From Nonlabens sp. YIK11 (GTDB taxonomy: Bacteria; Bacteroidota; Bacteroidia; Flavobacteriales; Flavobacteriaceae), in contig NZ_LBMJ01000001.1 in NCBI RefSeq assembly GCF_001413925.1, positions 2,768,001 through 2,832,000 on the forward strand: DNA of 64,000 nucleotides. The letters are read 5' to 3'. A program made the translations under genes and the position numbers. Under the pieces are notes generated by a model. It was not told the origin of the DNA. It was given only the letters and a program-made list of their open reading frames with translations, and searched no databases. Below, in pieces: positions 692 to 61,690 of the stretch (positions are counted from its first letter, which is position 1; the number at the start of each line of letters is the position of its first letter).

Positions 692-2506
692 TTATTTAGT
701 CCTCTCAATATATTCATCAACCAATTCCTCTAATATATTTAACGGCAAGGAGCCATTAGTGAGTACCACATCGTGGAAATCTTTAATATCAAAATCTTCA
801 CCTAGTGCATTTTGAGCTTTGGCTCGCAACTGCAGGATCTTGTTCATTCCTACTTTGTAAGCAGTTGCTTGAGATGGCATCACGATATGGCGCTCTACCA
901 TTTTAATGGCATCACTTTCGGCATTAGGTGTATTTGCCATATAATATTCAATACCTTCTTCTCTACTCCACTTTTTGGAATGAATACCGGTATCCACCAC
1001 AAGGCGGCAGGCACGCCATAATTCCATAGCGAGTCTTCCAAAATCACTGTATGGGTCTTTGTAAAAGCCTATTTCTTTCGGGATCAGCTCTGAGTAAAGT
1101 CCCCAACCTTCTACATAGGCCGTGTAAAAGGAATGCTTTCTAAATTCAGGAATACTGTCCAGTTCTTGTGCGATGGCAATTTGCATATGGTGTCCAGGAA
1201 TACCTTCATGATAAGCTAATGCATCCATCTGATAGGTAGGCATAGCTTTCATATCATATAAATTAGCATAGTAAGTTCCAGGCCTACTGCCGTCAGTAGC
1301 AGGTTGCTGATAAAATGCTTTGCCAGCGCTAGACTCACGAAAAGGTTCCACAGCCTTTACGATGATGTCAGCTTCAGGAAGCGTGTGGAATAATTCTGGA
1401 AGTTTTGCCTTCATGGCATTAATCTTAGCGGTAGCCTCACCCAAGTACCTTTTCTTGCCGGCATCAGTATCCGAATAATAGAATTGGTCATCATCACGCA
1501 TGAATTTGAAGAAATCTTGAAGGGTTCCTTCAAATTTGACTTGTTTCATGATCTCACGCATCTCATTGTGAATGCGCTCTACTTCTTTGAGACCCAATTC
1601 ATGGATCTCGTCAGCCGTCATATTTGTGGTGGTGGTTCTATCTAAAGCGTGTTGATAAAACTCTGCTCCTTTAGGAAATTTCCAAGCTCCATCTTCTCCA
1701 GTGGCTCGCTGCTGTTGATCTGTAAGAAACGTGATCAAGTTTTCGTAAGCCGGCATCACGTGCTGCAGCAAGGCCTCATCTGCCATAGTTTTTAATTCCT
1801 CTTTTCGTTTAGTGTCTAGATCAAGCTTGTCTATTTTATCTTCAAAGTCTGCTGCAAGCGTACTCTTATCGCCAAAATCGCTAAACGGTGCACCAGTGAT
1901 CACATTACGGGAATCCTTAAGTACTTTTTCAAATACAAATCGAGGTAACAGGATGCCGTTTGTTTCTCTTAACGACAGGTTGTTGGTCAACTCCTCAAAC
2001 AGCGGCTGGATACCTTTAAAACGCTCAATGTATGCCAGTGCATCAGACTCGCTGGCTATTTGATGCATGTTGATCAAAAATGCCGGTACTTCAGACTGCA
2101 TACCGTGCATCTGGTTGACAGGATAGCTGTATAAGCGATAGTCATAATCTGCTATTTTTTGTTCCTGCTCGCGCTTATACAGTCGATAACTTAAAAGGTC
2201 TTGACCTTCCAGTGCCTGTTCTTCCACTTCCTTGGTCAAGTATTTGAGTCGGGATTCTGCCAGCTCTTTATCCTCTAGATCTCTGGCACTTGAGATATCG
2301 GTCCACTTGCCATAGTCCGTTTTGATACCCATCTGGGTTTGCATTTCAGGATCTCTTGCAAGGTCTTTTTGGAATTGTGCTTCCAGCCAGTTATTGAACT
2401 CTTGGGAGATTTTAAGTTGTTCCGCTTTCGCGAAAGCGTGACTATCAGTATCATTCTTACAAGAACCTAAGATTAGAATGATCGCCAGAAATACCGTCTT
2501 TCTCAT
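692..2506 (-). CDS. DUF885 family lipoprotein, metallopeptidase-like
   Basis: This is a predicted exported lipoprotein of the DUF885 family, whose members resemble zinc-dependent peptidases. Residues 1-16 form a signal peptide ending in the lipobox LGSC, so Cys16 would be lipidated and the protein anchored in a membrane facing the periplasm or surface. The zinc-site motif YHEGIPGHH lies near residue 432, in the C-terminal half as usual for the family, and the length (604 aa) is typical. The palindrome at 2423-2438 is translated as AFAKA at about residue 24, in the linker just after the lipidation site. The gene follows dsbD after 6 bases on the same strand and probably shares its transcript. 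Substrate unknown. Confidence 0.88.
   Translation of the reverse strand: MRKTVFLAIILILGSCKNDTDSHAFAKAEQLKISQEFNNWLEAQFQKDLARDPEMQTQMGIKTDYGKWTDISSARDLEDKELAESRLKYLTKEVEEQALEGQDLLSYRLYKREQEQKIADYDYRLYSYPVNQMHGMQSEVPAFLINMHQIASESDALAYIERFKGIQPLFEELTNNLSLRETNGILLPRFVFEKVLKDSRNVITGAPFSDFGDKSTLAADFEDKIDKLDLDTKRKEELKTMADEALLQHVMPAYENLITFLTDQQQRATGEDGAWKFPKGAEFYQHALDRTTTTNMTADEIHELGLKEVERIHNEMREIMKQVKFEGTLQDFFKFMRDDDQFYYSDTDAGKKRYLGEATAKINAMKAKLPELFHTLPEADIIVKAVEPFRESSAGKAFYQQPATDGSRPGTYYANLYDMKAMPTYQMDALAYHEGIPGHHMQIAIAQELDSIPEFRKHSFYTAYVEGWGLYSELIPKEIGFYKDPYSDFGRLAMELWRACRLVVDTGIHSKKWSREEGIEYYMANTPNAESDAIKMVERHIVMPSQATAYKVGMNKILQLRAKAQNALGEDFDIKDFHDVVLTNGSLPLNILEELVDEYIERTK
2423..2438. repeat. Palindrome copy 1, exact 16-mer
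   Basis: CGCTTTCGCGAAAGCG inside the DUF885 gene, read as AFAKA just behind the lipobox. Confidence 0.95.
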
Positions 2507-2512
2507 AATTGA

Positions 2513-4561: not shown

Positions 4562-5880
4562 GTAATCTTTTTAATTTCTTTAGTCGATCTTGTAATGGCA
4601 TGATGCCTACTGGACCTCAAACCAACAATCCATAAAATCTTGTCACCCGATTCCAAAACAAAACATCGTTCTTTATCCAATCGGGAAACTTTCTCATTAA
4701 TTAATATATCGCTCACTAATTGCGAGCCACTCATGCCATAAGGTTCCAGCCTATCGCCTGGCCTCCATACCCGTAAAGTTAACGGATATTCCAGCCGTGA
4801 CGTATCTACCAGCAATACATTTTTACCCATGTGCGCCTTGACAAAATCCATAGGATCATCCACATGATGGGTTTCTACCGATAGCTGCGCCTGATCAATA
4901 GATACTGATGTAGTTTCAGGTAATAGATACCAGGTTGCTGTTACGGGATCCTTACGCAACTCTAACCTCAATAAATCCCGATCTTTCAGCAAGATATAAT
5001 CGTCATTCTGCAGTTGTTTACCGGTTTCGGCGTCCATCAAATGCAGGACTTCATCCATCTTGATAAAACCATAAGGCTGTAGCAAATAGAACAGATACTT
5101 AGCAAATCCATCCACCTTTTTTACCTCATCCAGATGTATTTCAAATGCAGTGGTGTTGGTAGTTGTTACGCTTTCGCGAAAGCGTGCTACCGCATCGTCC
5201 ACAATACTTTCAACATCTTTGAGATAGGACAAGGTTTTGAGGAAATGAGCTCTCAAATCTGGAAGCGCGCTGTGTAGAAGCGGCAATACCTCATTACGCA
5301 ACTGATTGCGCTGGTAATCGTTACTGGCATTGCTGGAATCTTCACGCCATTTCAAATCATGCTGCTGCGCGTATTCCAAAATCTGCTGTCTGGTAAAAGG
5401 CAGCAACGGTCGTATCACAGACTCGTTGATCGCAGGAATTCCTTGCAGGCCAGCGAGTCCAGCGCCGCGATTTAAATTGATTAGAAACGTTTCGATTTGA
5501 TCGTCCAGGTGATGTGCCGTGAGGATACCATCCAGATGATAGGTTTGTTGCAGTTGCGCAAACCACTCATATCGCAAATCCCTGGCGGCCATTTGAGTGG
5601 AAATACCTCGATTTGCAGATATTTTTTTGGTCTCAAAAGAGGTAGTGTGCAGTTCAATTGCTTGATCGCCTGCCATTTTTTTGAGGAACTGTTCATCACC
5701 ATCACTTTCCGCAGCACGTAGATTGAAATTGCAATGTGCCCATTGCGCTTTTATTCCTGCCTGGTGGAGTAAATGTGCCAAAACAACACTGTCCAAACCA
5801 CCACTGATGGCCAGCAAATACGAGCCTTGCATCAATTGCGGGAAGTTAGATCTTACATGTTCAACAAAAGCATCTTGCAT
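4549..5880 (-). CDS. tilS: tRNA(Ile)-lysidine synthetase TilS
   Basis: Converts C34 of the AUA-reading tRNA-Ile to lysidine, using ATP and lysine, in the cytoplasm. The PP-loop motif [13 protein letters not shown] lies near residues 25-37, with [10 protein letters not shown] and [14 protein letters not shown] following, as in the family; the C-terminal TilS domain ([14 protein letters not shown]) is present. At 443 aa it is full length. The palindrome at 5169-5184 is translated in the frame ARFRES near residue 235, in the variable linker after the catalytic domain. The gene lies between pabB (10 bases upstream) and dsbD (overlapping). Confidence 0.93.
5169..5184. repeat. Palindrome copy 2, exact 16-mer
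   Basis: CGCTTTCGCGAAAGCG inside tilS, read in the RFRES frame. Confidence 0.95.
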
Positions 5881-5889
5881 GCTGCAAAT

Positions 5890-7307: not shown

Positions 7308-9557
7308 TTAGAATCTATACTGCAACAAACCTCTAATGAAGAATGGTGTTCCTGGTGTAAAGTGTATTTCTTCCACGGGTGCAGCTTCATTTTGAAGTCT
7401 TGATTCTGTAGCAAATTGGGTTTCATTCCACTCTACACCAAATAAGTTTTGAACCGCAACGCCTAACCTCAGGTTGTTACTGATATCGTAATTTACATTC
7501 AAGTCAGATACAAAATAACCTTCTGCAACAATGTTATTGTCTTCATTTGCAGGACGATCACCAATATAACGGTATCTAAATCCAGCATTGAAACCATTCC
7601 AATCCTTTAGACTCAAACCACCGGTAGACGTAAACTTAGGAGCCAATGGGATCAAGTCTTCGCCATCAGGTTCGTTAATAGCTCTAGCGTGAGCATAGTT
7701 TAAATTACCGTCAAAGAAAAGGTGGTCTGTAAGTTGATACCTTAATCCTAGGTCATAGCCATAACGCTCTGTCTCACCGCTAGGCTCTACGATACCTGCA
7801 TCACCTACATAGACAAATTCTTGCTCCAGGAATAAATACCATAAAGCAGCATTCACAATAATTCTGTTGGTAGGTTTCCAGATGGCTCCTAAATCAGATC
7901 CATAGGATTTAGGTAAAATATCGTCTGCTGTTTCTTGTAGCACCACACGAGTATCATTACTATGAAAACCAACGCCATTTTTGAAGTATAATTGAACGTC
8001 TTCATTCACTCGGTAGTTGAAATTCAGCTTGGGCAACAATGCTGTTTCAGTTTGTGCTTGAGTATCGTATAAAGTGGTCAGCGCGTCTTTATACGTGAAC
8101 TTGAATCGTTCCAATCGCAATCCAGCATCAATCAAGAAATCATTCACGTACCAGGTAGCACCTACAAATCCAGAAGTGTTGGTTTCGTTAATATCACCTA
8201 GCTGAATATTCTCTAAGGTCGTGCGTCTATTCAACGTGCGTGATAACTCACTACCTTCTGTACGATCGTTGCGTAACCTGATTCCTGCGGTTAAATCTAG
8301 CTTATAATCGGCTAACTGGGTTGTATAGGTATAAGCCGCATCAAGCCCAGCCAGGTCACGAGATTCTCGTTGTCTGATTTGGTCACCATTAATAGGATCT
8401 TCTAGGAAGAACGTAAAGTTGGAGAACAAAAGGAAGTCGTACTTAGAATAATACAAATGAGTGCTGAAGGTTTCGTTATCGCTCACCTGCATGTCATAAT
8501 TGATGTTGACACTGGTGCGTGAGGTCTCGCCACCTTCTGTATCATCAATAGCGCCAAATCTTCCTATCAAACCACGATCCACAGCACGTTGCGGGATCTG
8601 TCCGCTCGCGTCCCATTCACTATCAAAATGCGAGATACTTACGCCCAACTCATTACCATTATCAGATATGTAATTGAGTTTCCCGAATAAGTTGATGCGA
8701 TCAAAATTTTGTGGGCTATCAAACGGCCCATCAAATGTCAAATATTCTGTAGCTACATAAGCGCTGGTATTGCTATTATCCAACACCTGAACCAATCCCA
8801 CATAACGCTGATAATTAAAATCACCAATTTCTGAACTGATTACATTTTCACGCACATAATCCATCGTACGGAAATCCACATGTCCAGCCGTAGCAAAATT
8901 CCCAACCGCTTTATCATAGCTACCTTTTCCATAAGAGATGTTCTCAATGGTTTCAGGGATGACAAAGTGCAAGTCTGCATAGCCTTGTCCATGCGCATGG
9001 GACACCATATTCACTGGCATACCGTCGACACTTATGGCAACGTCTGTACCGTGATCAATATCAAAACCTCTTAGAAACAACTGCTCTGCCTTACCGCCAC
9101 CAGCATGTTGTCCTATAAAAAGACCTGGCACGGCTCGCAAAACTTCTTGAGATGATGTCACCGGATTCACTTCAAGATCGGCTTTCGTGATAGTGTTAAG
9201 CACGTCAACATCATTGGTTAAGCTAATAGCATCTAAATCTATGGGCGCCTCCTCAAGGATAATCTGAAGCACTTCAGATTCATCTGTTATCGCTTTCGCG
9301 AAAGCGGAATACCCCAATTTTGAAAATCGCAATTCATCACCTTCATCCACATCATTTAAGATGAAATAGCCCTTAACATTAGTATGCGTGTGCTTTCCAG
9401 TTTTGACGTGTAGGACATAAACATCTTTTAAGGGTCGATCCTCTGTATCCACAACCGTACCGGTAATGGGATGGGCAAAAATGAGATTTGAAAATAAAAT
9501 GAAGAGTAAAAGAAGCCCAGAAGGAGCATTCTTTTTAGGTGAAAATCTAGAATTCAT
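7308..9557 (-). CDS. TonB-dependent outer-membrane receptor
   Basis: An outer-membrane gated channel that would import a substrate with energy from TonB. After a signal peptide (about residues 1-28, ending near LIFAHP) comes a carboxypeptidase-regulatory-like domain (GTVVDTEDRPLKDVYV...), then a plug domain (VLRAVPGLFIGQHAGGGKAEQLFLRGFDIDHG) and a beta-barrel ending in the aromatic residue of LLQYRF, typical for outer-membrane insertion. No SusD partner lies next to it, so a siderophore, cofactor or metal is as likely as a glycan. The DHGTD and SHAHGQGYADLH plug segments are histidine-rich, which might point to metal, but this is inference. The palindrome at 9291-9306 is read as AFAKA in the N-terminal domain. 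Confidence 0.9.
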   Translation of the reverse strand: MNSRFSPKKNAPSGLLLLFILFSNLIFAHPITGTVVDTEDRPLKDVYVLHVKTGKHTHTNVKGYFILNDVDEGDELRFSKLGYSAFAKAITDESEVLQIILEEAPIDLDAISLTNDVDVLNTITKADLEVNPVTSSQEVLRAVPGLFIGQHAGGGKAEQLFLRGFDIDHGTDVAISVDGMPVNMVSHAHGQGYADLHFVIPETIENISYGKGSYDKAVGNFATAGHVDFRTMDYVRENVISSEIGDFNYQRYVGLVQVLDNSNTSAYVATEYLTFDGPFDSPQNFDRINLFGKLNYISDNGNELGVSISHFDSEWDASGQIPQRAVDRGLIGRFGAIDDTEGGETSRTSVNINYDMQVSDNETFSTHLYYSKYDFLLFSNFTFFLEDPINGDQIRQRESRDLAGLDAAYTYTTQLADYKLDLTAGIRLRNDRTEGSELSRTLNRRTTLENIQLGDINETNTSGFVGATWYVNDFLIDAGLRLERFKFTYKDALTTLYDTQAQTETALLPKLNFNYRVNEDVQLYFKNGVGFHSNDTRVVLQETADDILPKSYGSDLGAIWKPTNRIIVNAALWYLFLEQEFVYVGDAGIVEPSGETERYGYDLGLRYQLTDHLFFDGNLNYAHARAINEPDGEDLIPLAPKFTSTGGLSLKDWNGFNAGFRYRYIGDRPANEDNNIVAEGYFVSDLNVNYDISNNLRLGVAVQNLFGVEWNETQFATESRLQNEAAPVEEIHFTPGTPFFIRGLLQYRF
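9291..9306. repeat. Palindrome copy 3, exact 16-mer
   Basis: CGCTTTCGCGAAAGCG inside the TonB-dependent receptor gene, read as AFAKA in the domain before the plug. Confidence 0.95.
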
Positions 9558-11160: not shown

Positions 11161-12486
11161 TTAGATTGTCGCTTCTCCTTCGGCTATTTCACTTACCGAT
11201 TTAGGTTGCGGATTTCGCTTGTTATAAGGTCTAATAATTAATCGAGCGGCGCGATCAAAATTGAAGTAATTGTAGGTCCAGTTGAGGAAAACCACTATTC
11301 TATTGCGAACTCCAACTAAAAAGTATAGGTGAACGCCCAACCAGGCAAACCAAGCGAGAAAACCTCCTAAGGTAAATTTACCTATGTCTGCCACCGCACG
11401 ATTTCTACCAACAGTAGCCATGGAACCTTTATCAAAATAACTAAAGGGTTTCATCTCTTTACCTTCAGCCATTCTAATTAGGTTTTTTCCAAGGTTGTCT
11501 CCTTGCTGTATGGCAGGTTGTGCCACTTGTGGGTGACCATCGGGAAAATCTTTAGTTTTCATAAATGCAATGTCACCTACTGCATATACATTATCAGTTC
11601 CTTCCACTTTATTAAAAAGATCCACTTTGAGTCGGTTCCCTTTTTCTGTAATCATGGATTTTTCAAAGCCGCTGGGATGTGCACCGGTCACACCAGCACT
11701 CCAGATGAAGGTTGACGTTTCCAGTCGCATACCACTTTTAGTGGTTACAATGTCATCTTCATAGTTGGTGACCATCTCTTCCAGATGGACCTCAACGCCT
11801 AATTCTTTCAAATACTTATACGCTTTTAACGAGGCCTTTCTGCTAAATGGTGGCAAGACTCGATCAGCTCCATCCAGCAGGTGGATTTCCATAAAGTCTG
11901 GATTGATGTCTGGATAGTCGTTTTTGAGTATGCCGTTTTTAAATTCCGCAAAGGCTCCAGAGAGTTCTACTCCAGTAGGACCAGCTCCAGACATCACGAT
12001 ACGCATGAGCTTTTTTTGCTCGTTCACATCGTCAGTGATAGTTGCCTTTTCAAGGTTTTGAAGCATGAGACTTCTTATATCCAGCGCCTCTGGAACGGAC
12101 TTCATGGACAGTGCATTCTCCTCAATCTTATCGTTCCCAAAGAAATTGGTTTTGGTTCCCGTGGCGAGAATCAAATGATCATAATCGATCTCTCCTATGC
12201 TTGTAGTAATGGAGTTTTTTTCAAGATTGACTTTCTCTACTTCCGCCATTCTGAACAGGTAGTCGTGTGTCTCATCAACAATGCTACGCAATGGAAAAGC
12301 AATGGAATCTGGTTCCAAACCACTGGTGGCTACCTGATATAAAAGTGGCTGGAAGGTGTGATAGTTATGCCTGTCTATAAGTACGACTTGAAATTTGTGC
12401 TCTGTTAGCTTTCGCGAAAGCGTAACTCCTCCAAAACCGCCGCCTACAATAACGACTCTGGGATGTTGACTAGCAGGAATCTGCAT
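11161..12486 (-). CDS. ndh: Type II NADH dehydrogenase (NDH-2), FAD-dependent
   Basis: A single-subunit, non-proton-pumping NADH:quinone oxidoreductase on the inner face of the inner membrane. The FAD fold VVIVGGGFGGVTLSRKL, the family segment NYHTFQPLLYQVATSGLEPDSIAFPLR, a second nucleotide fold (MSGAGPTGVELSGAFAEF) and VYAVGDIA are present; hydrophobic C-terminal segments probably anchor it. The longest frame begins at 12567, but homology begins at Met28 of it (MQIPASQHPRVVIVGGG), so I place the start at 12486 (441 aa). The palindrome at 12407-12422 encodes TLSRK within the FAD-binding helix itself, so here it is part of the folded core. Confidence 0.9.
   Translation of the reverse strand: MQIPASQHPRVVIVGGGFGGVTLSRKLTEHKFQVVLIDRHNYHTFQPLLYQVATSGLEPDSIAFPLRSIVDETHDYLFRMAEVEKVNLEKNSITTSIGEIDYDHLILATGTKTNFFGNDKIEENALSMKSVPEALDIRSLMLQNLEKATITDDVNEQKKLMRIVMSGAGPTGVELSGAFAEFKNGILKNDYPDINPDFMEIHLLDGADRVLPPFSRKASLKAYKYLKELGVEVHLEEMVTNYEDDIVTTKSGMRLETSTFIWSAGVTGAHPSGFEKSMITEKGNRLKVDLFNKVEGTDNVYAVGDIAFMKTKDFPDGHPQVAQPAIQQGDNLGKNLIRMAEGKEMKPFSYFDKGSMATVGRNRAVADIGKFTLGGFLAWFAWLGVHLYFLVGVRNRIVVFLNWTYNYFNFDRAARLIIRPYNKRNPQPKSVSEIAEGEATI
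12407..12422. repeat. Palindrome copy 4, exact 14-bp core
   Basis: GCTTTCGCGAAAGC is exact; the first base of the 16-mer is A instead of C. Read in the LSRK frame inside the NDH-2 Rossmann helix. Confidence 0.9.
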
Positions 12487-16453: not shown

Positions 16454-16469
16454 CGCTTTCGCGAAAGCG
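16454..16469. repeat. Palindrome copy 5, exact 16-mer, intergenic
   Basis: CGCTTTCGCGAAAGCG in the 228-base gap between the Yellow-like gene and the TolC-family gene, 48 bases after the latter's stop codon. It is preceded by TTGAGTATT, similar to the TTGAG before copies 6 and 7. Confidence 0.95.
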
Positions 16470-16517: not shown

Positions 16518-17960
16518 TTACAGATTCTCAGGCAATATCACCAGGCTTCTAAATAAGGTAGCCTTGGATTCAAACAACTTTTTTTGAACCTCTAATTGCT
16601 TTAATTGAGCCTCAATAAACTTGACTTCCCTAGAGTTGATGAGGAACAGGGAACTGTCTCCCAATTCAAACTTGCGCAGTTCACCAGCAAGCAGTTGTGC
16701 CGTACCCGTAGTTAAGTTGGACGATATATCTAGCTGTCTGTTGTAACCTTCCAGCTCTGCAAACACAGATATGACTTTGTTGCGCAAAATGAGCGTTTCA
16801 GATTGCAGGCCGTAGCGTGCGTCATTAATCTTGATTTTGGCTAGGCGCAAATCTCCTCGTTCCTTCCTGGTAAAAATGGGATAGGCAAAAGTCAATCCAG
16901 CTTTGTAGTTATCCTGTGTGATGGAATTAAGCCGGTCCCAATCTGGAGTGATAAAATTATAATCAACGGTAATTTTAGGCAAAAGCTTGTTCGCTTTCAA
17001 TTGCCGGTCCACATCCAGTTGATCCAACTTAAAGTTGAGCGCCTGAATTTTAGGGTGGTTTTCAACGTTAAATTCTGACAGGCTAGTTCCCATAAGTCCC
17101 AGCGTCACGTCTATGGACGAATTTAAATCAGGTTGTGGGAAGACATTGGGTTGTAATTCTACCGGCACGCCATCCAGCCATAAAAAATTGGAAAGCTGCA
17201 ACCTGCTTTTGATCTCGTTCACTCTTGCCTGCTCTAATCCTAGCAATCTGTTCTGTGTGGCCACGCCGGCTTCTACCGTGTCAATCGCGGCCTTATCACC
17301 AGCGCGAGCGCTAATAATCACGCCGCGTTCTCGTGTAATGGCAGCATCCAAAATATCGATATATACCTCAACCTCCTTAGTAGCTCGCCACCATTCAAAA
17401 TAGGCCGTTGATGCATCAAATAGGATCTGGTTGACGGCAAGATCTCTTTCTGCTGCTGTTTGTTGCTCAAACAGTCGCGCCTTGCGCAAGGTCGCCATAC
17501 GATCATTGATCAATAATCCTTGTGCCAGGTCTACCTTAACTCCAGCACTGTACAAACCACCATCTGGAACGGTAAGTGATGGATCAAGAAAGGATCCTTC
17601 ATTACGCTCTGCTCCAGCCTTGAATTCTATACCATACCAGGTTGGAATCTTGAAGACACCAGAGAGTTCATCATAATATTCCGTTCCCTTAAAGTCCTTG
17701 CGGCGATAATCGACTTCAATTTTGGGATCAAAACCACCACGCGCTCGTAGCAAGTTCGCTTGTCCTTCGTCTAGCAGCAGTTCTGCTTGTTTGGCAACTG
17801 GATGGTGGCGCTTGACATATCCCAAATACTCAGAAAAGCTGAGAACAGTAGTGTCCTGCAAAACTTGTACTGGCGGTTGTTGTTGAGTTCGCTTTCGCGA
17901 AAGCGAAACAGCATCTACCTGCAACACTATTAAAAGAGCTATGAATAACGTGAACCTCAT
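16518..17960 (-). CDS. TolC family outer-membrane efflux protein
   Basis: The outer-membrane channel of a tripartite export system. The mature start is MRFTLFIALLIVLQ at 17960 (480 aa): a signal peptide, then two repeated coiled-coil/beta modules as in the TolC family (SEYLGYVKRHHPVAKQAELLLDEGQANLLRARGG). The longest frame extends to 18272 but would overlap the HlyD gene by over 300 bases and has no homology there. One base separates this start from the HlyD stop. The palindrome at 17890-17905 is read as SLSRKRT just after the signal peptide. It acts with the HlyD-like and ABC proteins upstream. Confidence 0.9.
   Translation of the reverse strand: MRFTLFIALLIVLQVDAVSLSRKRTQQQPPVQVLQDTTVLSFSEYLGYVKRHHPVAKQAELLLDEGQANLLRARGGFDPKIEVDYRRKDFKGTEYYDELSGVFKIPTWYGIEFKAGAERNEGSFLDPSLTVPDGGLYSAGVKVDLAQGLLINDRMATLRKARLFEQQTAAERDLAVNQILFDASTAYFEWWRATKEVEVYIDILDAAITRERGVIISARAGDKAAIDTVEAGVATQNRLLGLEQARVNEIKSRLQLSNFLWLDGVPVELQPNVFPQPDLNSSIDVTLGLMGTSLSEFNVENHPKIQALNFKLDQLDVDRQLKANKLLPKITVDYNFITPDWDRLNSITQDNYKAGLTFAYPIFTRKERGDLRLAKIKINDARYGLQSETLILRNKVISVFAELEGYNRQLDISSNLTTGTAQLLAGELRKFELGDSSLFLINSREVKFIEAQLKQLEVQKKLFESKATLFRSLVILPENL
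17890..17905. repeat. Palindrome copy 6, exact 16-mer (20 bp with flanks)
   Basis: CGCTTTCGCGAAAGCG with TTC/GAA flanks, preceded by TTGAG, at the start of the mature part of the TolC-family protein; read as SLSRKR. Confidence 0.95.
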
Positions 17961-21777: not shown

Positions 21778-21793
21778 CGCTTTCGCGAAAGCG
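21778..21793. repeat. Palindrome copy 7, 22 bp with flanks, intergenic
   Basis: CGCTTTCGCGAAAGCG, extended by GTT on the left and AAC on the right to a 22-bp perfect palindrome at 21775-21796. Preceded by TTGA. It lies between the divergent TetR and M24 genes, 28 bases before the M24 start. Confidence 0.95.
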
Positions 21794-39391: not shown

Positions 39392-39407
39392 CGCTTTCGC
39401 GAAATCG
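39392..39407. repeat. Palindrome copy 12, one mismatch, intergenic
   Basis: CGCTTTCGCGAAATCG, one mismatch, 4 bases after the secA stop codon. Confidence 0.85.
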
Positions 39408-43949: not shown

Positions 43950-45020
43950 TTGAGATTTCCCCTTGTTTTACTGACTTTGCTGAGTTTCGCTTTCGCGAAA
44001 GCGCAAACCTCAAGAGCCTATTCCAACGAGTTTTTGAACATAGGTGTCGATGCTGCAGCTTTAGGGATGAGCAATGCCGTGGTCGCAAAAACTGGTAACG
44101 TGAATTCTGGATACTGGAATCCAGCTGGTTTGATGCAATTGGAAGAGCGTGAATTATCACTCATGCACGCCAGTTATTTTGCTAACATCGCCCAATATAA
44201 CTATGGTGCCTATGCGATGCCTATTGACGACCGCAGTGCTTTTGCATTTTCTGTGATACGATTCTCTGTCGACGACATCTTGAATACCACCCAACTTATC
44301 GATGATCAAGGAAATATCAATTATGACCGTATATCCACATTCTCTACGGCAGATTGGGCATTTACCTTGTCCTATGCACGTGAGTCAAAACTGGACGGTT
44401 TTTCTTATGGTGGTAATGTCAAAGTCATACGCAGAATCATAGGTGATTTTGCGACTTCATTAGGTTTTGGACTGGATATAGGATTGCAAATGCAACGCGG
44501 TGACTGGAGTTTTGGACTTATGGCTAGAGATATTACTACCACTTATAACACCTGGTCCATCGACGAGGATGAATTTGCAACCGTGCAAGGTGCCGTCGCC
44601 AATCAAAATCAAGAACTCCCAGAAACTACCGAGATCACGCTCCCAAAACTGCAACTGGGAATCTCTCGAGAATTTACCTTTCACTATGATCATGTCCTAA
44701 CCGCCGAGGTTGATCTAAATATGAGGTTTATCCAAACCAATGACATTATATCCAGCAGTAGTGTGAGTGCGACGCCTGCATTGGGACTGGAATATGGTTA
44801 TACAGATCTTGTCTTTGTGCGTGCCGGTATGGGAAATTTCCAGAATGAAATGCAGCTGGACGGCAATGACAATGTCACTTTCCAGCCCAATATAGGCATA
44901 GGCTTTAAATACAAGGGCATATCTGTGGACTATGCCTTGACAGATATAGGAGATTCCAGTGCAGCATTGTATTCCAATATCTTTTCGGTAAATGTGGACC
45001 TATCGGTTTTTAGTCGTTAG
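43950..45020 (+). CDS. PorV/PorQ family outer-membrane protein
   Basis: An outer-membrane beta-barrel of the PorV/PorQ family linked to type IX secretion (356 aa). Family features are SNEFLNIGVDAAALGMSNAVVA near the mature N-terminus, GYWNPAGLM, and barrel strands to the end; PorV binds cargo after export, but this member's exact role is unknown. The start is TTG at 43950. The palindrome at 43988-44003 encodes SFAFAKAQ exactly at the predicted end of the signal peptide, so AKA-Q would be the leader-peptidase cleavage site. The gene precedes lnt on the same strand. Confidence 0.87.
   Translation: MRFPLVLLTLLSFAFAKAQTSRAYSNEFLNIGVDAAALGMSNAVVAKTGNVNSGYWNPAGLMQLEERELSLMHASYFANIAQYNYGAYAMPIDDRSAFAFSVIRFSVDDILNTTQLIDDQGNINYDRISTFSTADWAFTLSYARESKLDGFSYGGNVKVIRRIIGDFATSLGFGLDIGLQMQRGDWSFGLMARDITTTYNTWSIDEDEFATVQGAVANQNQELPETTEITLPKLQLGISREFTFHYDHVLTAEVDLNMRFIQTNDIISSSSVSATPALGLEYGYTDLVFVRAGMGNFQNEMQLDGNDNVTFQPNIGIGFKYKGISVDYALTDIGDSSAALYSNIFSVNVDLSVFSR
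43988..44003. repeat. Palindrome copy 15, exact 16-mer, in a signal peptide
   Basis: CGCTTTCGCGAAAGCG read as AFAKA at the signal-peptide cleavage site of the PorV-like protein. Confidence 0.95.
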
Positions 45021-45088: not shown

Positions 45089-46696
45089 ATGCTTAAAAAC
45101 ATTCTACTTGCGCTATTATCGGGAATACTATTTTGGCTAGGTTGGCCTACTTACGGCTTTCCATTATTGTTGTTTTTTGCGTTTATTCCGCTATTGATTG
45201 TTGAGTATGGAATACGGCATCAATCGGTCAAAGCTGCTGGCTGGAAGGTCTTGGGATTGTCTTACATTACGTTTTTCACGTGGAATATATGCACGACCTC
45301 TTGGCTGTATTTTTCCACACCATTTGGGATGTGGTTTGCCGTATTGGTCAACTCCTTATTGATGGCAATCGTATTTTGGTGCTATCATCTATTTGCCCGC
45401 AAGGCGACTACTGGCGCCTCACTTACCTTTCTCGCTTGTTTATGGATAGGCTTTGAATACCTTCACTTACACTGGGATTTTTCATGGCCTTGGCTCAATC
45501 TGGGCAATGGTTTTAGCGAGTATACCTCTTGGATCCAGTGGTATGAATACACAGGAACCTTTGGTGGTAGCTTATGGGTTTGGGGTACGAACATTTCCCT
45601 GTTTTTATTGTGGAAACGCTTTCGCGAAAGCGGAACAAAACTCAATCTGTTTGTATCTGTTAAAGTCACTCGCATTTCACTGACTTTAATTGGAATCCCA
45701 ATACTGATATCCCTTTTCCTAAAGCCCGATGACTCGCTAGATGGCGACACGAGCGAGGTGGTCATATTACAACCGAACATTGACCCGTATGCTGAAAAGT
45801 ACAATACTGATAATTCTAGTATTGTCAATCTCTTACTCAACCTAACTGAACAAAAAATAACCGATTCTACTGATATCATCATCGCGCCAGAGACCGTGCT
45901 CGCGAGATCCATAGAATTGAACACAGTTCCTTTTGATCCCAGCGTGAATGCACTCCAAGGATATATCACGCAGCATCCCAACACCTCCTATGTAGGTGGG
46001 ATATCGATGCTGGAACGTTTTAGGGATGAAGAAAAAGTAACCACACAAAGCAATTACTATGCTGACGGTGATTTTTATTACAACGATTTTAATAGTGCCT
46101 TATTTTTAAAAGACAAGAGTGAATCTGCCTTGTATCACAAATCCAAACTTGTGGTAGGTGTCGAGAACTTTCCTTACAAGAGTATTCTTCAACCTATTTT
46201 AGGTGATGCCATGATCGATCTAGGCGGTACGGTAGCCACGAAAACCACTCAGCCGGAAAGAGCGGTATTTGAGAGTACACAAGGTTCCAAGGTGGCTCCT
46301 ATTATATGTTATGAATCAGTTTATGGCGATTATGTGACCGACTATGTACTGAACGGTGCGCAGTTTCTTGCTATCATCACTAATGATGCCTGGTGGGGAA
46401 ATACACAAGGTCACCAGCAACATTTAAGTATTGCTAGGTTAAGAGCCATTGAGTCTAGAAAATGGGTCGCCCGTAGTGCCAATACGGGAATCAGTGCCGT
46501 GATTGCTCCATCTGGAGTCGTTGTGGAACGGTTAGATTATGAAGAGCAAGGAACTATCAAAGCGACCATTGGTCTCTCTGATGAGCTTACCTTCTACTCT
46601 AAACACGGTGATTACATTGCACGCATTGCTATGGGAATGGGCCTATTTATTTTACTGTTTGGGATTTTCAAGAGAGGAACCATGAAGCGGAAATAA
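45089..46696 (+). CDS. lnt: Apolipoprotein N-acyltransferase
   Basis: Adds the third acyl chain to lipoproteins at the inner membrane. The N-terminal half has several membrane segments; the C-terminal nitrilase-like domain carries the catalytic triad in APETVL (Glu), YHKSKLVVG (Lys) and IICYESVYGD (Cys), and NDAWWGNTQGHQQHLSIARLRAIE follows, as usual. The palindrome at 45617-45632 is read as KRFRESGTK, in the loop after a membrane segment near residue 180. The stop codon directly precedes an 8-bp tandem array. Many lipoproteins in the window would be its substrates. Confidence 0.93.
   Translation: MLKNILLALLSGILFWLGWPTYGFPLLLFFAFIPLLIVEYGIRHQSVKAAGWKVLGLSYITFFTWNICTTSWLYFSTPFGMWFAVLVNSLLMAIVFWCYHLFARKATTGASLTFLACLWIGFEYLHLHWDFSWPWLNLGNGFSEYTSWIQWYEYTGTFGGSLWVWGTNISLFLLWKRFRESGTKLNLFVSVKVTRISLTLIGIPILISLFLKPDDSLDGDTSEVVILQPNIDPYAEKYNTDNSSIVNLLLNLTEQKITDSTDIIIAPETVLARSIELNTVPFDPSVNALQGYITQHPNTSYVGGISMLERFRDEEKVTTQSNYYADGDFYYNDFNSALFLKDKSESALYHKSKLVVGVENFPYKSILQPILGDAMIDLGGTVATKTTQPERAVFESTQGSKVAPIICYESVYGDYVTDYVLNGAQFLAIITNDAWWGNTQGHQQHLSIARLRAIESRKWVARSANTGISAVIAPSGVVVERLDYEEQGTIKATIGLSDELTFYSKHGDYIARIAMGMGLFILLFGIFKRGTMKRK
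45617..45632. repeat. Palindrome copy 16, exact 16-mer
   Basis: CGCTTTCGCGAAAGCG inside lnt, read in the RFRES frame in a loop between membrane segments. Confidence 0.95.
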
Positions 46697-46782
46697 TGTG
46701 GTAATGTGGTAATGTGGTAATGTGGTAATGTGGTAATGTGGTAATGTGGTAATGTGGTAATGTGGTAATGTGGTAATGTGGT
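46695..46782. repeat. 8-bp tandem array, 11 copies
   Basis: AATGTGGT repeated 11 times without error, starting within the lnt stop codon. A perfect array of this kind suggests recent slippage and probable length variation between strains. Confidence 0.95.
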
Positions 46783-46850
46783 AATTAAATTTTTTGATTG
46801 TTGGTAATCAACTTAGTGATGTTAAATTATTCTATTTCTTTTTGCAATTA

Positions 46851-53841: not shown

Positions 53842-53864
53842 GAGTGGTTGTGTTTTAGGTTTTT

Positions 53865-55358
53865 TTAGGTTTGATGGTTTAGCAATTTTACGATTTCCTT
53901 TTCAAAGTCTTCTAGGGTGTATTGCTGTGACCAGGTTTGTGCTGCTTGGGACATCATTTGATAATGATCTTGGTGGTTCAGCAGCCATTGCAGGTCGGTT
54001 ATGGTACGATTTATTTTAGTAAAAATGAGGCCTCTTGGAGTTTCTGATTTAACTATAAGCTTATTTGCTTCTAAACCGTCTTCGACAGGCTCAAACTGAC
54101 CTAAAGTGATTATAAATAAGGTTTTTAAATCAAGATCTCCATTGTTATTCAGCATCCAAGGGACGCAACTCACTGGTGAGGCTATAGGTACACAGCCGTG
54201 CCACATGGCTTCGGCCACTGCCTTGGGCCAGCCTTCACTTTGGGAGGCTAAGAATACAAAATGGGCTTGTTTATAGGCCTTTCTGACCACCTCAGCGGGC
54301 TGGTTGCCGTGGAAGGTGAAGGCCCCATTGTCCTTACTTCGACTTCGATCAGTGCGAGAGGGAGATTTTTGCTGAGAGGAACGGGTGTTTTGATGACCAT
54401 CCATTTCTCGACTCTCGCTCGAAACTGGATTGCTTTGAGGTACTGAACGGTTCTCGACTTGACTTCGGCTTCGCTCAGTCGACAGGCTCGAAACTGGATT
54501 GCTTTGAGGTGTTGCAACGTTCTCGGGTTGACTTCGGCTGCGCTCAGTCGACAGACTCGAACCGGCATTGGGGTTGCTTTGGGGTTGACTTCGGCTACGC
54601 TCAGTCACCATGACTGTTCTGGCGTGTTGTTTTAGTTGTTGCATCATGGGGCCGTCGCCGTAGAAATGAGCTTGTGCGGAAATGCCGTGCTTATGTAGTC
54701 CTTCTATCAATTCTATCAACAATTGCGGGTTTTTGTTCTTTGATAGCGTACCTACAAAGATGATTTGTATCGGACTCACAAACTCTTTTTGGAATACCTT
54801 TCTGTCAGTTTTAGAATACGAAGCCGTGAAAAATGGCACTATGTTTTCCGATTGGTTTTTCCACTGTCCGTAGGCCATCACATTGGTATTCTTACTCCAT
54901 TTTGGGCTTGAAAAGAGGCGCTTTTGCCATCGATAGGATAAAGGTTGTTTTGAATTAGGATCCCAATTCCCAGCATATTTTACGGATATACGCTTTCGCG
55001 AAAACGATAATGCTACCAACCCGGCCAAAAAGGCTAGATTTCCCGGAGCCCGTAGATGAATATGGTCTGCCTTTTTCATTTGTTTATACAATAATTGAAT
55101 CTGGCCTGGAATGTTTATTAATGATTTTATTGCTGTGCTTATTCTGTTATATTCAAGTCTTTTGACCGGTAAAAGCTCAAAGTCTTGTCGGTCGAAGGGT
55201 TTCAAGAGCAAAGGGCGAGAAAACTCATTTGGACCTATAAATGTTGTATGAGATACGTGAGACATCCACAGATCCATTTCCTTAACGTAAGGTGCATAGG
55301 CCTGCTTAGTTCCTTTATCGTAAAGAATAGGAGCGTCAGATATGACAAGCAATTTCAT
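53865..55358 (-). CDS. Glycosyltransferase family 4 with in-frame 69-bp repeats
   Basis: A GT-B glycosyltransferase of 497 aa, longer than usual. The N-terminal domain runs to about residue 190. The donor domain starts with PIQIIFVGTLSKNKNPQLLIELIEGL and continues FYGDGPMMQQLKQHA. It resumes after the insert with FTFHGNQPAEVVRKAYKQAHFVFLASQSEGWPKAVAEAMWHG. Between these, about 95 residues (about 250-345) are made of TERSRSQ-containing 23-residue repeats encoded at 54320-54612. The frame is intact, so the enzyme may still fold, with a disordered loop. A palindrome with one mismatch (54991-55006) is read as SFSRKR. Confidence 0.9.
   Translation of the reverse strand: MKLLVISDAPILYDKGTKQAYAPYVKEMDLWMSHVSHTTFIGPNEFSRPLLLKPFDRQDFELLPVKRLEYNRISTAIKSLINIPGQIQLLYKQMKKADHIHLRAPGNLAFLAGLVALSFSRKRISVKYAGNWDPNSKQPLSYRWQKRLFSSPKWSKNTNVMAYGQWKNQSENIVPFFTASYSKTDRKVFQKEFVSPIQIIFVGTLSKNKNPQLLIELIEGLHKHGISAQAHFYGDGPMMQQLKQHARTVMVTERSRSQPQSNPNAGSSLSTERSRSQPENVATPQSNPVSSLSTERSRSQVENRSVPQSNPVSSESREMDGHQNTRSSQQKSPSRTDRSRSKDNGAFTFHGNQPAEVVRKAYKQAHFVFLASQSEGWPKAVAEAMWHGCVPIASPVSCVPWMLNNNGDLDLKTLFIITLGQFEPVEDGLEANKLIVKSETPRGLIFTKINRTITDLQWLLNHQDHYQMMSQAAQTWSQQYTLEDFEKEIVKLLNHQT
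54320..54612. repeat. In-frame 69-bp tandem repeats inside a glycosyltransferase gene
   Basis: Two near-complete 69-bp units, starting at TCGAAACTGG (54419 and 54488), plus partial ones on both sides. Each contains GACTTCGGCT(T/G/A)CGCTCAGTC, the same word type as the repeats flanking the GIY-YIG gene. 69 bp is 23 codons, so the frame is kept. Confidence 0.88.
54991..55006. repeat. Palindrome copy 17, one mismatch
   Basis: CGCTTTCGCGAAAACG in the GT4 gene, read as FSRKR. Confidence 0.85.
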
Positions 55359-56904: not shown

Positions 56905-58372
56905 TTGACAATTTATGAGACCAATATACACTACGATCCCAAGCCTTTCTAAAATAGCGGTAATGCTTTATTGGATTACTAGTACCAAAACCACGATAGA
57001 ACTTAAAAAAAAGTACTAATTTATATCCTTGTAATTGCTGTAAAGTGGTGTTTTTACGTCTGAAGTACATTATTTGCGGCGAGGGTTTTGGCTTGAATTT
57101 TTCAAATTGCCAAGGAAAAATAAATTCACTTCTAAATCCGCCAACTGGTGCTTTAAGGTGAAGAATTTGAATTTGAGGTGTATAAATTACATCATAACCG
57201 GCATTTCTGATTTGCATACCATAATCCGCGTCTTCTCCGTAGCCATGTTCCAAAGCAAGATCAAAAGAGCATTGTTCAAACACATCACGGTTTACCATGG
57301 AACAACCTGATCCAAAAGATTTCCATTGTATCATAGCGGTAACTTTATCCTGATCGTTATTTTGTAAGTATGCAGTATTTATAACACTTAAGCCTGTTTG
57401 TTTCAATGTTTGAAATATTTTCTCGAACAAAAGTTTATCAAAACGAGCGTCATCATCAAAAAACATCACCCAAGGTGCCGTCGTTTTGGATATGGCAAGA
57501 TTTCTAGCGTGACAAGAACCAGTTCTGTGTATCAATTGGTGGTCCATCTGAAATGGCCAGGTCTCTTCTTCTAGATAATACAGCTCACTTTTAGAAGATG
57601 AATCTGCATTTTGCTCAATGATAATTATTTTTTTTGGCTGTATGGTTTGCCTTGCGATATCCTTAAGTACCTGATACAGATAATCAGGCCTTCCCAAGGT
57701 GGGAATTATAATCTCATATTCTAAATCAAACTCATCAGGCTTAAAAACCTTTTTTTGTAAAACAACAGCGTCGATTTTGATTTTTCTAGTCTTAAAAAAT
57801 TGCGCTTTCGCGAAAGCGGCCCACGGAAATCTTTTTTCATAAAGTATATGGCATAGCAATAACAGCAAGGTCCAACGTCTTTTATAATGTTGTTGAACGA
57901 ACTGGTACAACAAAGAATCTGACAGTTTATTATGACTAAGGTGATATGGCAATTGGTATGTGAAAACACCAGCCGACTGAGCCAACTTGCCCAGCGAATT
58001 GACCCAATACAAAAGGTCTTGACTTGCAGATAACTGGTCGGAAACTTGATTGACCAAAGCCGCATGAATGTAAAAAATAGATGTTCCCTTTATCCAGGTA
58101 GGATACTTCACGGTTTTTGATATTTTGAGAAAAGGGCTGTCCTCTACATATCCAAAATCTTGATTTAATGGGTTATGATTGGAAATGAACAAATTTCTCG
58201 AAAGGTTCTCTCCTAGGGCTTCAATAAACAAGGTTCCATCAAGATCCCTTTCTTTTACAACAATTGGTTCTTCTGGATTTTCTCTGGCGCAATCGTACAA
58301 AGCTGGTAATACCGATTTACCTTGATAGGGTCCAGCACATATCTTATTCTGCTTGTACTCCAGAATAATCAT
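56894..58372 (-). CDS. Glycosyltransferase family 2 with N-terminal extension
   Basis: A 492-aa protein. The GT-A domain lies in the second half, from about residue 218 (YEIIIPTLGRPDYLYQVLKDIARQ, IIIIEQNAD, WVMFFDDDARFD, EHGYGEDADYGMQIRNAG). The first 215 residues are of unknown type and resemble other surface-glycan proteins that carry a sugar-nucleotide-like fold. The palindrome at 57803-57818 is read as AAFAKAQF in the linker before the GT domain. It overlaps the next GT4 gene by 4 bases, so the run is one operon. Confidence 0.87.
   Translation of the reverse strand: MIILEYKQNKICAGPYQGKSVLPALYDCARENPEEPIVVKERDLDGTLFIEALGENLSRNLFISNHNPLNQDFGYVEDSPFLKISKTVKYPTWIKGTSIFYIHAALVNQVSDQLSASQDLLYWVNSLGKLAQSAGVFTYQLPYHLSHNKLSDSLLYQFVQQHYKRRWTLLLLLCHILYEKRFPWAAFAKAQFFKTRKIKIDAVVLQKKVFKPDEFDLEYEIIIPTLGRPDYLYQVLKDIARQTIQPKKIIIIEQNADSSSKSELYYLEEETWPFQMDHQLIHRTGSCHARNLAISKTTAPWVMFFDDDARFDKLLFEKIFQTLKQTGLSVINTAYLQNNDQDKVTAMIQWKSFGSGCSMVNRDVFEQCSFDLALEHGYGEDADYGMQIRNAGYDVIYTPQIQILHLKAPVGGFRSEFIFPWQFEKFKPKPSPQIMYFRRKNTTLQQLQGYKLVLFFKFYRGFGTSNPIKHYRYFRKAWDRSVYWSHKLSNGL
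57803..57818. repeat. Palindrome copy 18, exact 16-mer
   Basis: CGCTTTCGCGAAAGCG inside the GT2 gene, read as AFAKA in the linker before the catalytic domain. Confidence 0.95.
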
Positions 58373-59517: not shown

Positions 59518-59552
59518 CTATTTAATATTCTTGATTTTTATATTCTAGTTTG

Positions 59553-60266: not shown

Positions 60267-60268
60267 GA

Positions 60269-61690
60269 TTACTTTTCCATAATTTGTTGAATCTCTTCCC
60301 AAATTCGCTCACTTGCCTTTTCTGGTGATTCTGGCTTATTTACGATACCATACCACTGCCTGGTTACAGGAACGGGATTTAGCTCGCCACATAGTATTCC
60401 CTTAATTCCTTTGTAGATGTCCAATTTGTTAAAGGCCCAAACAACGCTTTTCTCGCGTTCTGGCATGGATCTAAAATGTACGTACTCGTAATTTTGTCCA
60501 ATATCACGAGTTCCGTTGGTAAGCTGCGGCTGTTCGTAATTGGGATAAATGGTTGGCTTACCGTGTATCACAAAATCAAAAACCATGCTCGAGCAAATAT
60601 TGACCACCAGCTCGCTATGGTAGCAGGTGTTGACCAACCTGGCAAAATCAGCTTTAGTGGGCATTACTTGATTCCATTGTTGTCCCATAGGTTTCCATAA
60701 AGGTGCTATAGGTGTGATCACATCGCTATATTTTTCCAAAACATCATCATATCTGCCCGTAAAGTCAATAGGCACCTGACGGTAAATAATACCGATATCA
60801 AAGCCTTCTTCTTTAAGCTTTCTTACAGCCACAGCCGTGTCCTCCAGGTAGTATTGATCCAACGGTGAAGTAGTCTGGTCATCTCCAGAAAAACAGATAT
60901 ACCTTGTAGTTTCACTTAGACCATGTTCTTGGCAGAATTGCTTTCGCGAAAGCAAGATATCCATATCATAATGTGGCTCAAATTGCGGTGTGCCAGTGAC
61001 AAAGATTTGCTCTGGTTTGGTTTTAGGATAATACTCCAACAACTGAGCTTTCATCAACTCTGACCAGACGAAATAGTAATCCGTCTCGATGGTTGACATT
61101 CCTTTTGGCAGATTGTCCCAACTGTAAATCCAGCAGGCTGTTTTGATTCCTAGATCCTGTGCCGCAAGAATAGGTGCAATCGCTTGAGTTGCGCGCTGTG
61201 TGGTGCAAAAAACTAGATCAGGCCTGTGTTCTGACAACTGTGCTTTTACCTCTAGGTAGCGTTGCGTTGATCGTTCAGCAGCATACATTTGATCTACTAA
61301 TTGTTGCCAGCCCTTTTGGCTTGCGCTGAATTTCTCATGGTATTTGACAAAGCTGCTTTTGACCAAATTCTTTAAGCTGTTCCATCGTAGTGGAAATCGA
61401 TACGTGCGATACACCTTGTCGTTAGTTCGCTTTCGCGAAAGCGATAACTCCACCCTTTTTCTTGCATGATTTAACACAGGCGTTTTAGGATGAATCTTTG
61501 TGCTAGCGATCTTTATTTCCTGATATCCCAACTCTTCCTGCAGTGGAAATATGGTATTGTTCCAATAAGTGATGTCAAAACCTTGCTCCTCACCAATCTC
61601 TTTGAACTGCGTGAAGGCAAAGTTGCGCAGGCCGACGCCGTCGGGAAACAGAATAAAAATCTTCTTGTTTTGTGGGGTATTTAAGGCCAA
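60269..61690 (-). CDS. Surface-glycan glycosyltransferase-like protein
   Basis: A 473-aa protein with a GT-B-like layout: N-terminal [20 protein letters not shown], a linker, [42 protein letters not shown], and C-terminal [26 protein letters not shown]. The last segment resembles the C-terminal part of CDP-glycerol/UDP-N-acetylglucosamine-type enzymes of capsule loci. I cannot give a precise activity. It carries two palindromes: at 60940-60953 (read LLSRKQ) and 61428-61443 (read SLSRKRT), the only gene here with two copies. Confidence 0.78.
60940..60953. repeat. Palindrome copy 19, exact 14-bp core
   Basis: GCTTTCGCGAAAGC is exact; the outer bases of the 16-mer differ on both sides (T and A). 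Read as LLSRKQ in the glycosyltransferase-like gene. Confidence 0.92.
61428..61443. repeat. Palindrome copy 20, exact 16-mer
   Basis: CGCTTTCGCGAAAGCG (18-bp palindrome with flanks) inside the glycosyltransferase-like gene, read as SLSRKRT. Confidence 0.95.

Follow-up and report, generated by a model that had tools for sequence, protein, structure and literature searches.

To our knowledge, no more than two bacterial families have well-established uptake sequences, the origin of which is debated. The USS of the Pasteurellaceae is described in PMC1626085 as a core of 9 bp accompanied by two AT-rich segments, whereas the DUS of the Neisseriaceae is a 10-mer whose flanks hold no motifs according to PMC1626085 and a few weaker bases according to PMC1939737. 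The latter source also reports even spacing for uptake sequences, and PMC7811141 gives about one site per 1 kb for H. influenzae. In the Neisseriaceae, foreign uptake dialects are reported to mark ICEs (PMC7371117). Riemerella columbina takes up its own DNA preferentially, and the short-word count given in PMC7965970 settled on no uptake motif. A different kind of iterated word is HIP1 of the cyanobacteria, an 8-bp palindrome accompanied by methyltransferases of its inner sequences (as presented in PMC4390886).

The motif described herein was found in Nonlabens, and its constrained core, CGCTTTCGCGAAAGCG, is a 16-bp perfect palindrome. Like the USS, the element combines a core with AT-rich segments spaced by roughly one helical turn, and the two have in common abundant stable copies, even spacing, a non-coding excess and family-wide sharing (for the USS, as described in PMC1626085 and PMC1939737). 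Unlike the USS, it has a palindromic core with flanks on both sides, occurs once per 3–4 kb, belongs to the Bacteroidota and is only putatively linked to uptake. Similarly to the DUS as portrayed in PMC7371117, it is clade-specific, lies partly in genes and appears to mark mobile DNA from other hosts, but the DUS is not palindromic. With HIP1 it shares the highly iterated palindromic form and a bias of deviations to the outer bases (PMC4390886 for HIP1); unlike HIP1, it appears to need no C5 enzyme, and its inner palindromes are not enriched. The likening to HIP1 or uptake sequences, first made in a sequence-only reading of this DNA, is judged right. Our favoured, if tentative, interpretation is that the motif is a genome-wide self-DNA recognition element, most likely a palindromic analogue of uptake sequences.

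The window, i.e., the whole 64-kb stretch of DNA that was analysed, holds 22 sites with up to three mismatches (15 exact, four with one mismatch, one with two and two with three), whereas 100 dinucleotide shuffles of it averaged 0.23 sites at the same threshold and never gave more than 2. At up to two mismatches there are 20 sites (Table 1), 17 of them inside mechanically called ORFs; the 14-mer occurs 17 times and TTTCGCGAAA 19 times. In the 3.26-Mb genome, the exact 16-mer is present in 680 copies and the reversed control word in none. The sequence-only reading had counted 15 exact copies, 17 of the 14-mer and 20 sites spanning 2423–61443, which proved exact on recount. Its view of a highly iterated motif in excess of chance, dispersed in and between genes, is likewise borne out by the shuffles, the genome-wide count and the ORF placement, and its view that the copies are not transposase elements is judged right. 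The even spacing of the sites is a feature that it left unremarked.

Table 1. Motif sites with up to two mismatches in the window, with their context and their counterparts in the compared genomes G397 and G409.
Positions	Form	Context	Frame	Counterparts
2423..2438	exact 16-mer	DUF885 gene	AFAKA	identical in G397 and G409
5169..5184	exact	tilS-like gene	RFRES	
9291..9306	exact	TonB-dependent receptor gene	AFAKA	
12407..12422	1 mismatch	NDH-2-like gene	LSRKL	same column in 11/12 aligned proteins
16454..16469	exact	intergenic		intact in G409 despite diverged flanks
17890..17905	exact	outer-membrane efflux gene	LSRKR	G397 1 mismatch; G409 exact
21778..21793	exact	extreme 5' end of called ORF		G397 exact; G409 2 mismatches
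23507..23522	exact	prmA-like gene	AFAKA	in G397/G409 comparison
29244..29259	exact	intergenic, between divergent genes		G397 exact; G409 unaligned
32308..32323	exact	SIS/CBS-domain gene	AFAKA	in G397/G409 comparison
36139..36154	1 mismatch	secA		identical single-mismatch form in G397 and G409
39392..39407	1 mismatch	directly past secA stop		G397 exact; G409 unaligned
40595..40610	exact	ORF	AFAKA	in G397/G409 comparison
41472..41487	exact	ORF	AFAKA	in G397/G409 comparison
43988..44003	exact	5' part of ORF	AFAKA	in G397/G409 comparison
45617..45632	exact	ORF	RFRES	G409 exact; in G397 a 21-bp palindrome-containing insertion splits the site near the dyad
54991..55006	1 mismatch	glycosyltransferase gene	SFSRKR	different near-copies: G397 1 mismatch, G409 2
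57803..57818	exact	ORF	AFAKA	unaligned in G397 and G409
60939..60954	2 mismatches, both outermost; 14-mer intact	ORF		same form in G397 and G409
61428..61443	exact	ORF	LSRKR	in G397/G409 comparison

Sites occur at a density of about one per 3–4 kb and are spaced far more regularly than random placement would give (coefficient of variation of the gaps 0.50 vs 0.90), with only 5 of 148 gaps below 1 kb against 38.9 under random placement. No obvious regional trend was seen over 20 stretches along the chromosome. The constrained unit extends to about 52 bp, consisting of the 16-bp palindrome and some 18 bp on each side, and is double-stranded and two-fold symmetric; read outward, the flanks are G-poor, and they are A-rich at +1 to +3 and at +9 to +12, about one helical turn apart. 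Even spacing and local avoidance of close pairs, together with hundreds of genus-wide sites and the USS-like arrangement of core and A-rich segments, argue for an uptake sequence. The same regularity, the two-fold symmetry with wrapping-like flanks and the lack of a regional trend also suit the main rival explanation, namely an intracellular architecture mark at which a dimer of a nucleoid or chromosome-organising protein would bend or wrap some 50 bp of DNA, so that the chromosome is pinned once per 3–4 kb; we hold it to be possible but doubtful. Against an uptake sequence stand the density, sparser than in H. influenzae, the palindromic form, since known uptake sequences are described as non-palindromic in PMC1939737, and the weak spacing regularity and flank signal in G185. 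An intrinsic terminator was also considered and rejected: no T-run follows the hairpin, and 121 of 178 sites lie within ORFs. T at +1 to +3 amounts to 17, 17 and 11%, under the 29% background, and the flanks are no more complementary than their composition gives.

The distribution over genera is near on/off. The motif was present in all 23 Nonlabens genomes searched (180–737 copies each), in all 18 genomes drawn from a second genus (138–711 copies each) and, with 408 14-mers, in the sole genome examined of a third, while 391 of 397 family genomes hold 0–19 copies. This abundance in just 3 of the 231 genera sampled in the family speaks against an architecture mark. In a ComEC tree of 53 rows, Nonlabens is unplaced relative to the other two motif-rich genera, and a single clade is therefore not established; the one-change result on this tree, which would suggest a single origin, counts motif rows against outgroup rows only. 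Possible dialects of the motif in the sister genera represented by G042, G394 and G142 were discarded. These genomes hold 6, 15 and 9 dispersed 14-mers, the apparent enrichment came from stretches chosen for holding a site, and other stretches of G142 (140 kb) and G042 (120 kb) gave no site at up to two mismatches. CTTTGSCAAAG in G023 was likewise dropped as a dialect and reads as REP-like, because several of its copies form close pairs next to shared intergenic sequence.

Between this genome and G409, the site cores have diverged by 1.8%, against 21.9% overall. TilS-like proteins that are 43–50% identical still carry sites at the same column, and the site at 5169..5184 is found there in all ten aligned proteins (43–100% identity), once with 1 mismatch. 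Where sites turn over among orthologues, one site per gene is kept: that of the TonB-dependent receptor gene is shared by 6 of 10 species, and the other four have one site in a different column of the same gene. Orthologues without a site that align cleanly are of equal length and differ by substitutions; this result refers to clean alignments only, one site in a gappy N-terminal stretch being not judgeable. The sequence-only reading had also proposed a minimal mobile palindrome, of the REP or MITE kind, spreading by insertion. While the palindromic form, dispersal and high copy number would fit such an element, sites that stay put and, in clean alignments, arise by substitution make it hardly tenable.

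The possibility that the sites are merely conserved codons, raised in the sequence-only reading against its own proposal, fails as well. Out of 178 sites placed, 121 lie in ORFs and 57 are intergenic, whereas 11.5% of the DNA is non-coding. In the coding sites, the motif is read in three frames, and it accounts for nearly every occurrence of the peptides encoded (AFAKA 55/55, RFRES 21/21, LSRKR 18/19). Given the three reading frames and the intergenic excess, selection acts on the DNA. Conserved positions, intergenic excess, gain by substitution in clean alignments and a turnover that keeps one site in each gene all support an uptake sequence.

Mismatches within the sites are concentrated at the outermost bases, as reported for HIP1 in PMC4390886. 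This bias, in a GC-containing palindrome, recalls a methylation-linked iterated word that an orphan methyltransferase, with linked repair, both makes and maintains, and the sequence-only reading had listed a methylation mark among the possible roles. The idea is weakened, at least for the C5 class that was searched: of 36 motif-rich genomes, 18 gave no detectable C5 methyltransferase, and the present genome is among them. Outside the motif sites the inner palindromes are not enriched, with TCGCGA observed 68 times against 74.8 expected and CGCG 671 times against 884.7; TTCGCGAA occurs once against 0.2 expected, too few to judge. Furthermore, the 16-bp core and 18-bp flanks are far longer than usual methyltransferase sites, and we consider this origin very unlikely.

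Mobile DNA offers evidence in more than one direction. A 29-kb plasmid-like contig has no site, and a 20-kb stretch of the same genome, read as a prophage, has a single degenerate one, which favours an uptake sequence and speaks against an architecture mark. Phage contigs from IMG/VR, in contrast, bear the element. Among 41 matching stretches, some of them not independent of one another, 19 have two or three sites, mostly 3–5 kb apart and thus close to the spacing in the host; two sites have stayed in position at an identity of about 59–64%. Such retention favours a role in chromosome architecture and is hard to square with a purely extracellular one; phages and ICEs would then gain sites since unmarked DNA would be poorly maintained. 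Both the self/non-self pattern across chromosome, plasmid-like contig and prophage-like stretch and the marked phage contigs would also suit a Chi-type protection or defence-exemption mark, with a nuclease or defence complex sparing the DNA that bears the element. Chi sites, however, are short asymmetric words recognised on a single strand, whereas here 16 bp and symmetric flanks are constrained, and this explanation appears unlikely.

In the six motif-poor genomes with site-bearing genes that were checked, all of other genera, the sites sit in metal-efflux genes, within clusters (ten proteins) of RND efflux, P-type ATPase and Fur genes. These genes look transferred from motif-rich donors, and the clusters may be analogous to the foreign uptake dialects on ICEs, which would fit an uptake sequence. 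A large extra ParB lies near such a cluster in 4 of 13 motif-poor genomes searched. A parS-like origin cluster, which the few copies in other genera had at first resembled, was rejected, the clusters in the genomes checked being composed of efflux, ATPase and Fur genes and the chromosomal ParB lying elsewhere. A plasmid search with an island gene as query returned no match.

As for a protein that reads the element, parS/ParB and Noc sites are palindromes of similar length with TTTC...GAAA arms. In the Nonlabens motif the arms are 2 bp closer and sites number in the hundreds, and neither consensus word was found within two mismatches in 644 kb sampled from this genome; sites of the parS or Noc consensus are therefore an unlikely reading, and the sequence-only reading was right that the motif differs from the parS consensus. 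Six motif-rich genomes each encode exactly one ParB_N protein and no second ParB-type protein, which, with no reader found, counts against an architecture mark. Domains of a putative uptake machinery are widespread: ComEC domains were detected in 12/12 motif-rich and 45/46 motif-poor or outgroup genomes searched, and DUF5689-domain proteins in 11/11 and 18/19, respectively. These findings agree with an uptake sequence but, being equally common in motif-poor relatives, explain nothing specific to the motif. When 29 DUF5689 proteins were aligned, the part of the alignment compared held nothing particular to motif-rich genomes, and the ComEC neighbourhoods of three out of eight genomes, inspected by reading frame only, gave no lead to a reader. 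The uptake sequence is a candidate, with no receptor found in these comparisons and competence of Nonlabens presumed; the uptake and nucleoid-site roles suggested in the sequence-only reading both survive.

The form of the element suggests a symmetric protein complex as its reader, one that would recognise the core through contacts with the bases and the flanks through their shape or bending. If the motif is an uptake sequence, a flavobacterial-type competence system would preferentially take up DNA that bears the element. Alleles with a site could then spread by transformation. A further site close to one already present would gain little, so that sites would arise by point mutation, settle at one per 3–4 kb and be conserved in place. 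The self-DNA preference of Riemerella columbina provides a possible parallel, and the motif of Nonlabens is a clear candidate for the question raised by that work. A further proposal, which we advance with more reserve, is that of a self-DNA password: chromosome, transferable islands and adapted phages would share the roughly 52-bp symmetric element every 3–5 kb, and a machine with dyad symmetry would read it, so that marked DNA alone is admitted, kept or organised.

We know of no earlier uptake-sequence candidate in the Bacteroidota and of no earlier self-DNA password system that is palindromic or comes from this phylum. Within the open-licence PMC literature, an exact-word search with the 14-mer gave no match, subject searches gave no description of the motif by title or abstract start, and none of the exact-word matches to TTTCGCGAAA and CGCTTTCGCG is evidently on the motif (PMC8034619 deals with absent words in human DNA). 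A third, unrelated case of uptake sequences, if true, would by its palindromic core and symmetric flanks test both the need for an asymmetric pilin receptor and whether such marks serve uptake or the chromosome. The motif might, in addition, be useful for tracing gene flow, as the metal-efflux genes of the six genomes from other genera illustrate. Divergence was also tabulated by distance from the sites, in figures that are confounded by fast-evolving regions and carry no weight in the argument: there was little trend against G409 (21.7% vs 24.9%), and against G397 it was 4.8% within 250 bp and 9.4% beyond 2 kb.

The palindrome CGCTTTCGCGAAAGCG occurs in 15 exact copies in the window and at 20 sites when up to two mismatches are allowed, which reproduces the totals of the sequence-only reading; shuffles of the window give 0.23 sites even at up to three mismatches. 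The enrichment is genome-wide, with 680 exact copies against none of the reversed word. The genome holds 752 copies of the central 14-mer and 791 of the inner 10-mer TTTCGCGAAA, so that most inner 10-mers are part of the full word. A 644-kb sample, from stretches amounting to about one fifth of the genome, contains 136 exact sites plus 29 and 13 sites with one and two mismatches, respectively; it excludes stretch L051, whose tandem array has odd copies. The mismatched sites deviate mainly at the outermost bases of the motif. The GC content of that array is 58%, versus 41% for the genome.

The data show that selection acts at the DNA level. The concern that the sites might only be conserved codons is answered by their placement: the 121 of 178 sampled sites that lie within mechanically called ORFs are split over all three frames (67, 30, and 24), the remaining 57 are intergenic although non-coding DNA makes up 11.5% of the sample, and of the 95 occurrences of the peptides AFAKA, LSRKR, and RFRES, the motif encodes 94. 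A separate count that includes L051 gives 41 of 126 intergenic sites versus 12.8% non-coding DNA. For 27 of 33 co-directional intergenic sites of the 644-kb sample, the upstream stop is nearer than the downstream start (medians 47 and 119 bp), a bias that perhaps reflects promoter avoidance.

The sites are also conserved in place. Against the compared genome G409, core divergence is 1.8% versus 21.9% overall, and 15 of the 17 sites that align show no difference, compared with 4.4% of all aligned 16-mers (three unaligned sites excluded). Against the closer G397, the divergences are 1.3% and 6.3%, and 16 of 19 aligned sites are identical by count over a background of 47% (one unaligned site excluded); the number truly intact is 15, since a 21-bp insertion in G397, invisible to the identity count, interrupts site 45617. 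Across the genus, the site is kept in 10 of 10 rows for a TilS-like protein and in 11 of 12 for an NDH-2-like protein, while a TonB-receptor gene carries exactly one site per species (n=10), in one column in six and in another in four. The earlier suggestion of a minimal mobile palindrome is disfavoured, as the cleanly aligned gains, in proteins of 682, 437, and 749 aa, are substitutions with lengths unchanged; one site, near the N terminus of the 749-aa protein, falls in a gappy alignment stretch.

The motif is abundant in Nonlabens (180–737 exact copies in all 23 genomes searched), in the second genus g200 (138–711 in all 18 drawn), and in G185, one genome of a third genus, with 408 14-mers. 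Across 397 family genomes, the 14-mer occurs 408–857 times in six, 1–19 times in 73, and not at all in 318, while its reversed control occurs once, in one genome. The 10-mer follows, with 559–1107 copies in the six motif-rich genomes and at most 37 in all others (control 0–28). Among 394 Bacteroidota genomes, 11 contain the exact 16-mer, namely this genome and ten with one or two copies.

The palindrome is the centre of a longer element. Going outward from the core on either side, the G content is 6% at +1 to +10 and 9% at +11 to +18 (background 20%), with maxima of A at +1 to +3 and +9 to +12. The 18-bp flanks hold 1.40 G on average versus 3.74 in random 18-mers (minimum of 1000 trials 3.37). 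Since this pattern agrees among the coding 5′ side, the coding 3′ side, and intergenic sites, and the two flanks show no complementarity beyond composition, the extended element is a DNA feature rather than an RNA hairpin; a terminator reading is disfavoured as well. The pattern recurs in other Nonlabens and g200 and weakly in G185; it is weaker at viral-contig and island sites (12% and 14% G at +1 to +10, respectively). The base directly outside the core varies by species, being mostly A here and mostly T in g200 and G403. Judging from symmetry, length, and flank pattern, a dyad-symmetric protein complex would occupy about 50 bp of duplex.

The dyad itself looks like an insertion hot spot. 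A second palindrome centred on CCTGCCGGCAGG has five exact copies in 1.35 Mb of motif-rich stretches, three of them within the motif near its dyad, and it is absent from 400 kb of further Nonlabens stretches. For one motif interrupted in this way, the orthologous window site 45617 is intact.

Second-palindrome copies and tandem arrays
Stretch	Position	Feature
L037	1179	CCTGCCGGCAGG inside motif
L049	4232	CCTGCCGGCAGG inside motif
L054	5510	CCTGCCGGCAGG inside motif
L041	9565	CCTGCCGGCAGG outside recognisable motif
L193	13624	CCTGCCGGCAGG outside recognisable motif
L051	G000:C1:3180001-3200000	tandem array, unit ~1.16 kb, holding a repeated, degenerate motif relative
Window	46694-46785	tandem array of 8-bp unit (TAATGTGG type), alignable at many shifted positions in G397

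Spacing is even: 148 gaps in this genome average 3.25 kb with a CV of 0.50, versus 0.90 under random placement that kept the number of sites per stretch (minimum over 2000 trials 0.72), and only 5 gaps are below 1 kb versus 38.9 at random. For the first 100 exact sites in the genome listing the CV is 0.48, for other Nonlabens 0.51, and for g200 and G185 0.63 each; the case for evenness is weak in G185, as 4.35% of random trials are equally even. Even spacing is reported for uptake sequences (PMC1939737), and the Pasteurellaceae USS is described as combining a core with two AT-rich segments spaced at about helical intervals (PMC1626085). An uptake sequence is our tentative first choice, falling a little short of probable. 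The ComEC and DUF5689 domains, which PMC8459023 assigns to flavobacterial competence proteins, are present in the motif-rich genomes and equally in others. As for the other roles proposed from sequence, a methylation mark is disfavoured in its C5 form by a survey of C5 methyltransferases and by inner-palindrome counts outside the motif, and the stated difference from the parS consensus holds, parS and Noc words being disfavoured by a consensus search of this genome's sample. A single ParB, which might bind the motif, is present in each of the six motif-rich genomes searched.

An intracellular site organising the chromosome ranks second and is rather doubtful; the strongest point for it is the presence of sites in phages. 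IMG/VR holds 41 stretches with an exact match, several sharing one contig, and 19 of them carry two or three sites, mostly 3–5 kb apart. The matches of ten proteins, drawn from four stretches, include portal, head, protease, terminase, and tape-measure proteins; in stretch L080 there is an integrase match. A site is kept in place at about 59–64% identity in the pairs L102/L099 (at 4578) and L076/L092; conversely, another L102 site is degenerate in L099 and one more is unaligned. The alignment of L080 with L102 contains no site, and L080 and L077, about 86% alike, share one identical site of three, the other two differing. Some of the 41 matches, GC-rich stretches holding one copy each, are probably unrelated. 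In this genome, the 20-kb stretch L048, whose reading frames suggest phage-type genes, has one degenerate site, and the 29-kb contig C2, which we read as plasmid-like from its ParA-like and Rep-like reading frames, has none even with four mismatches allowed.

In the low-count genomes inspected (G076, G051, G280, and seven others fetched), the copies form clusters: on one contig in G076 and, among the matches listed, in G051, and mainly in two clusters in G280. Ten site-bearing genes from six such genomes encode metal efflux or its regulators, and a large extra ParB lies near such a cluster in 4 of 13 motif-poor genomes searched. In stretches of other Flavobacteriaceae genera (L009–L019), the motif sits at conserved positions within metal-efflux genes, which suggests transfer of these genes from motif-rich donors; a motif pair 933 bp apart occurs in the metal-efflux genes of G101, G209, G087, G078, G076, and G280. 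The 6, 15, and 9 14-mers of G042, G394, and G142, whose genera lack the genome-wide pattern, are dispersed and may be remnants or transfers. In G023, stretch L259 carries CTTTGSCAAAG repeats, several as close pairs, near shared intergenic sequence; these are REP-like.
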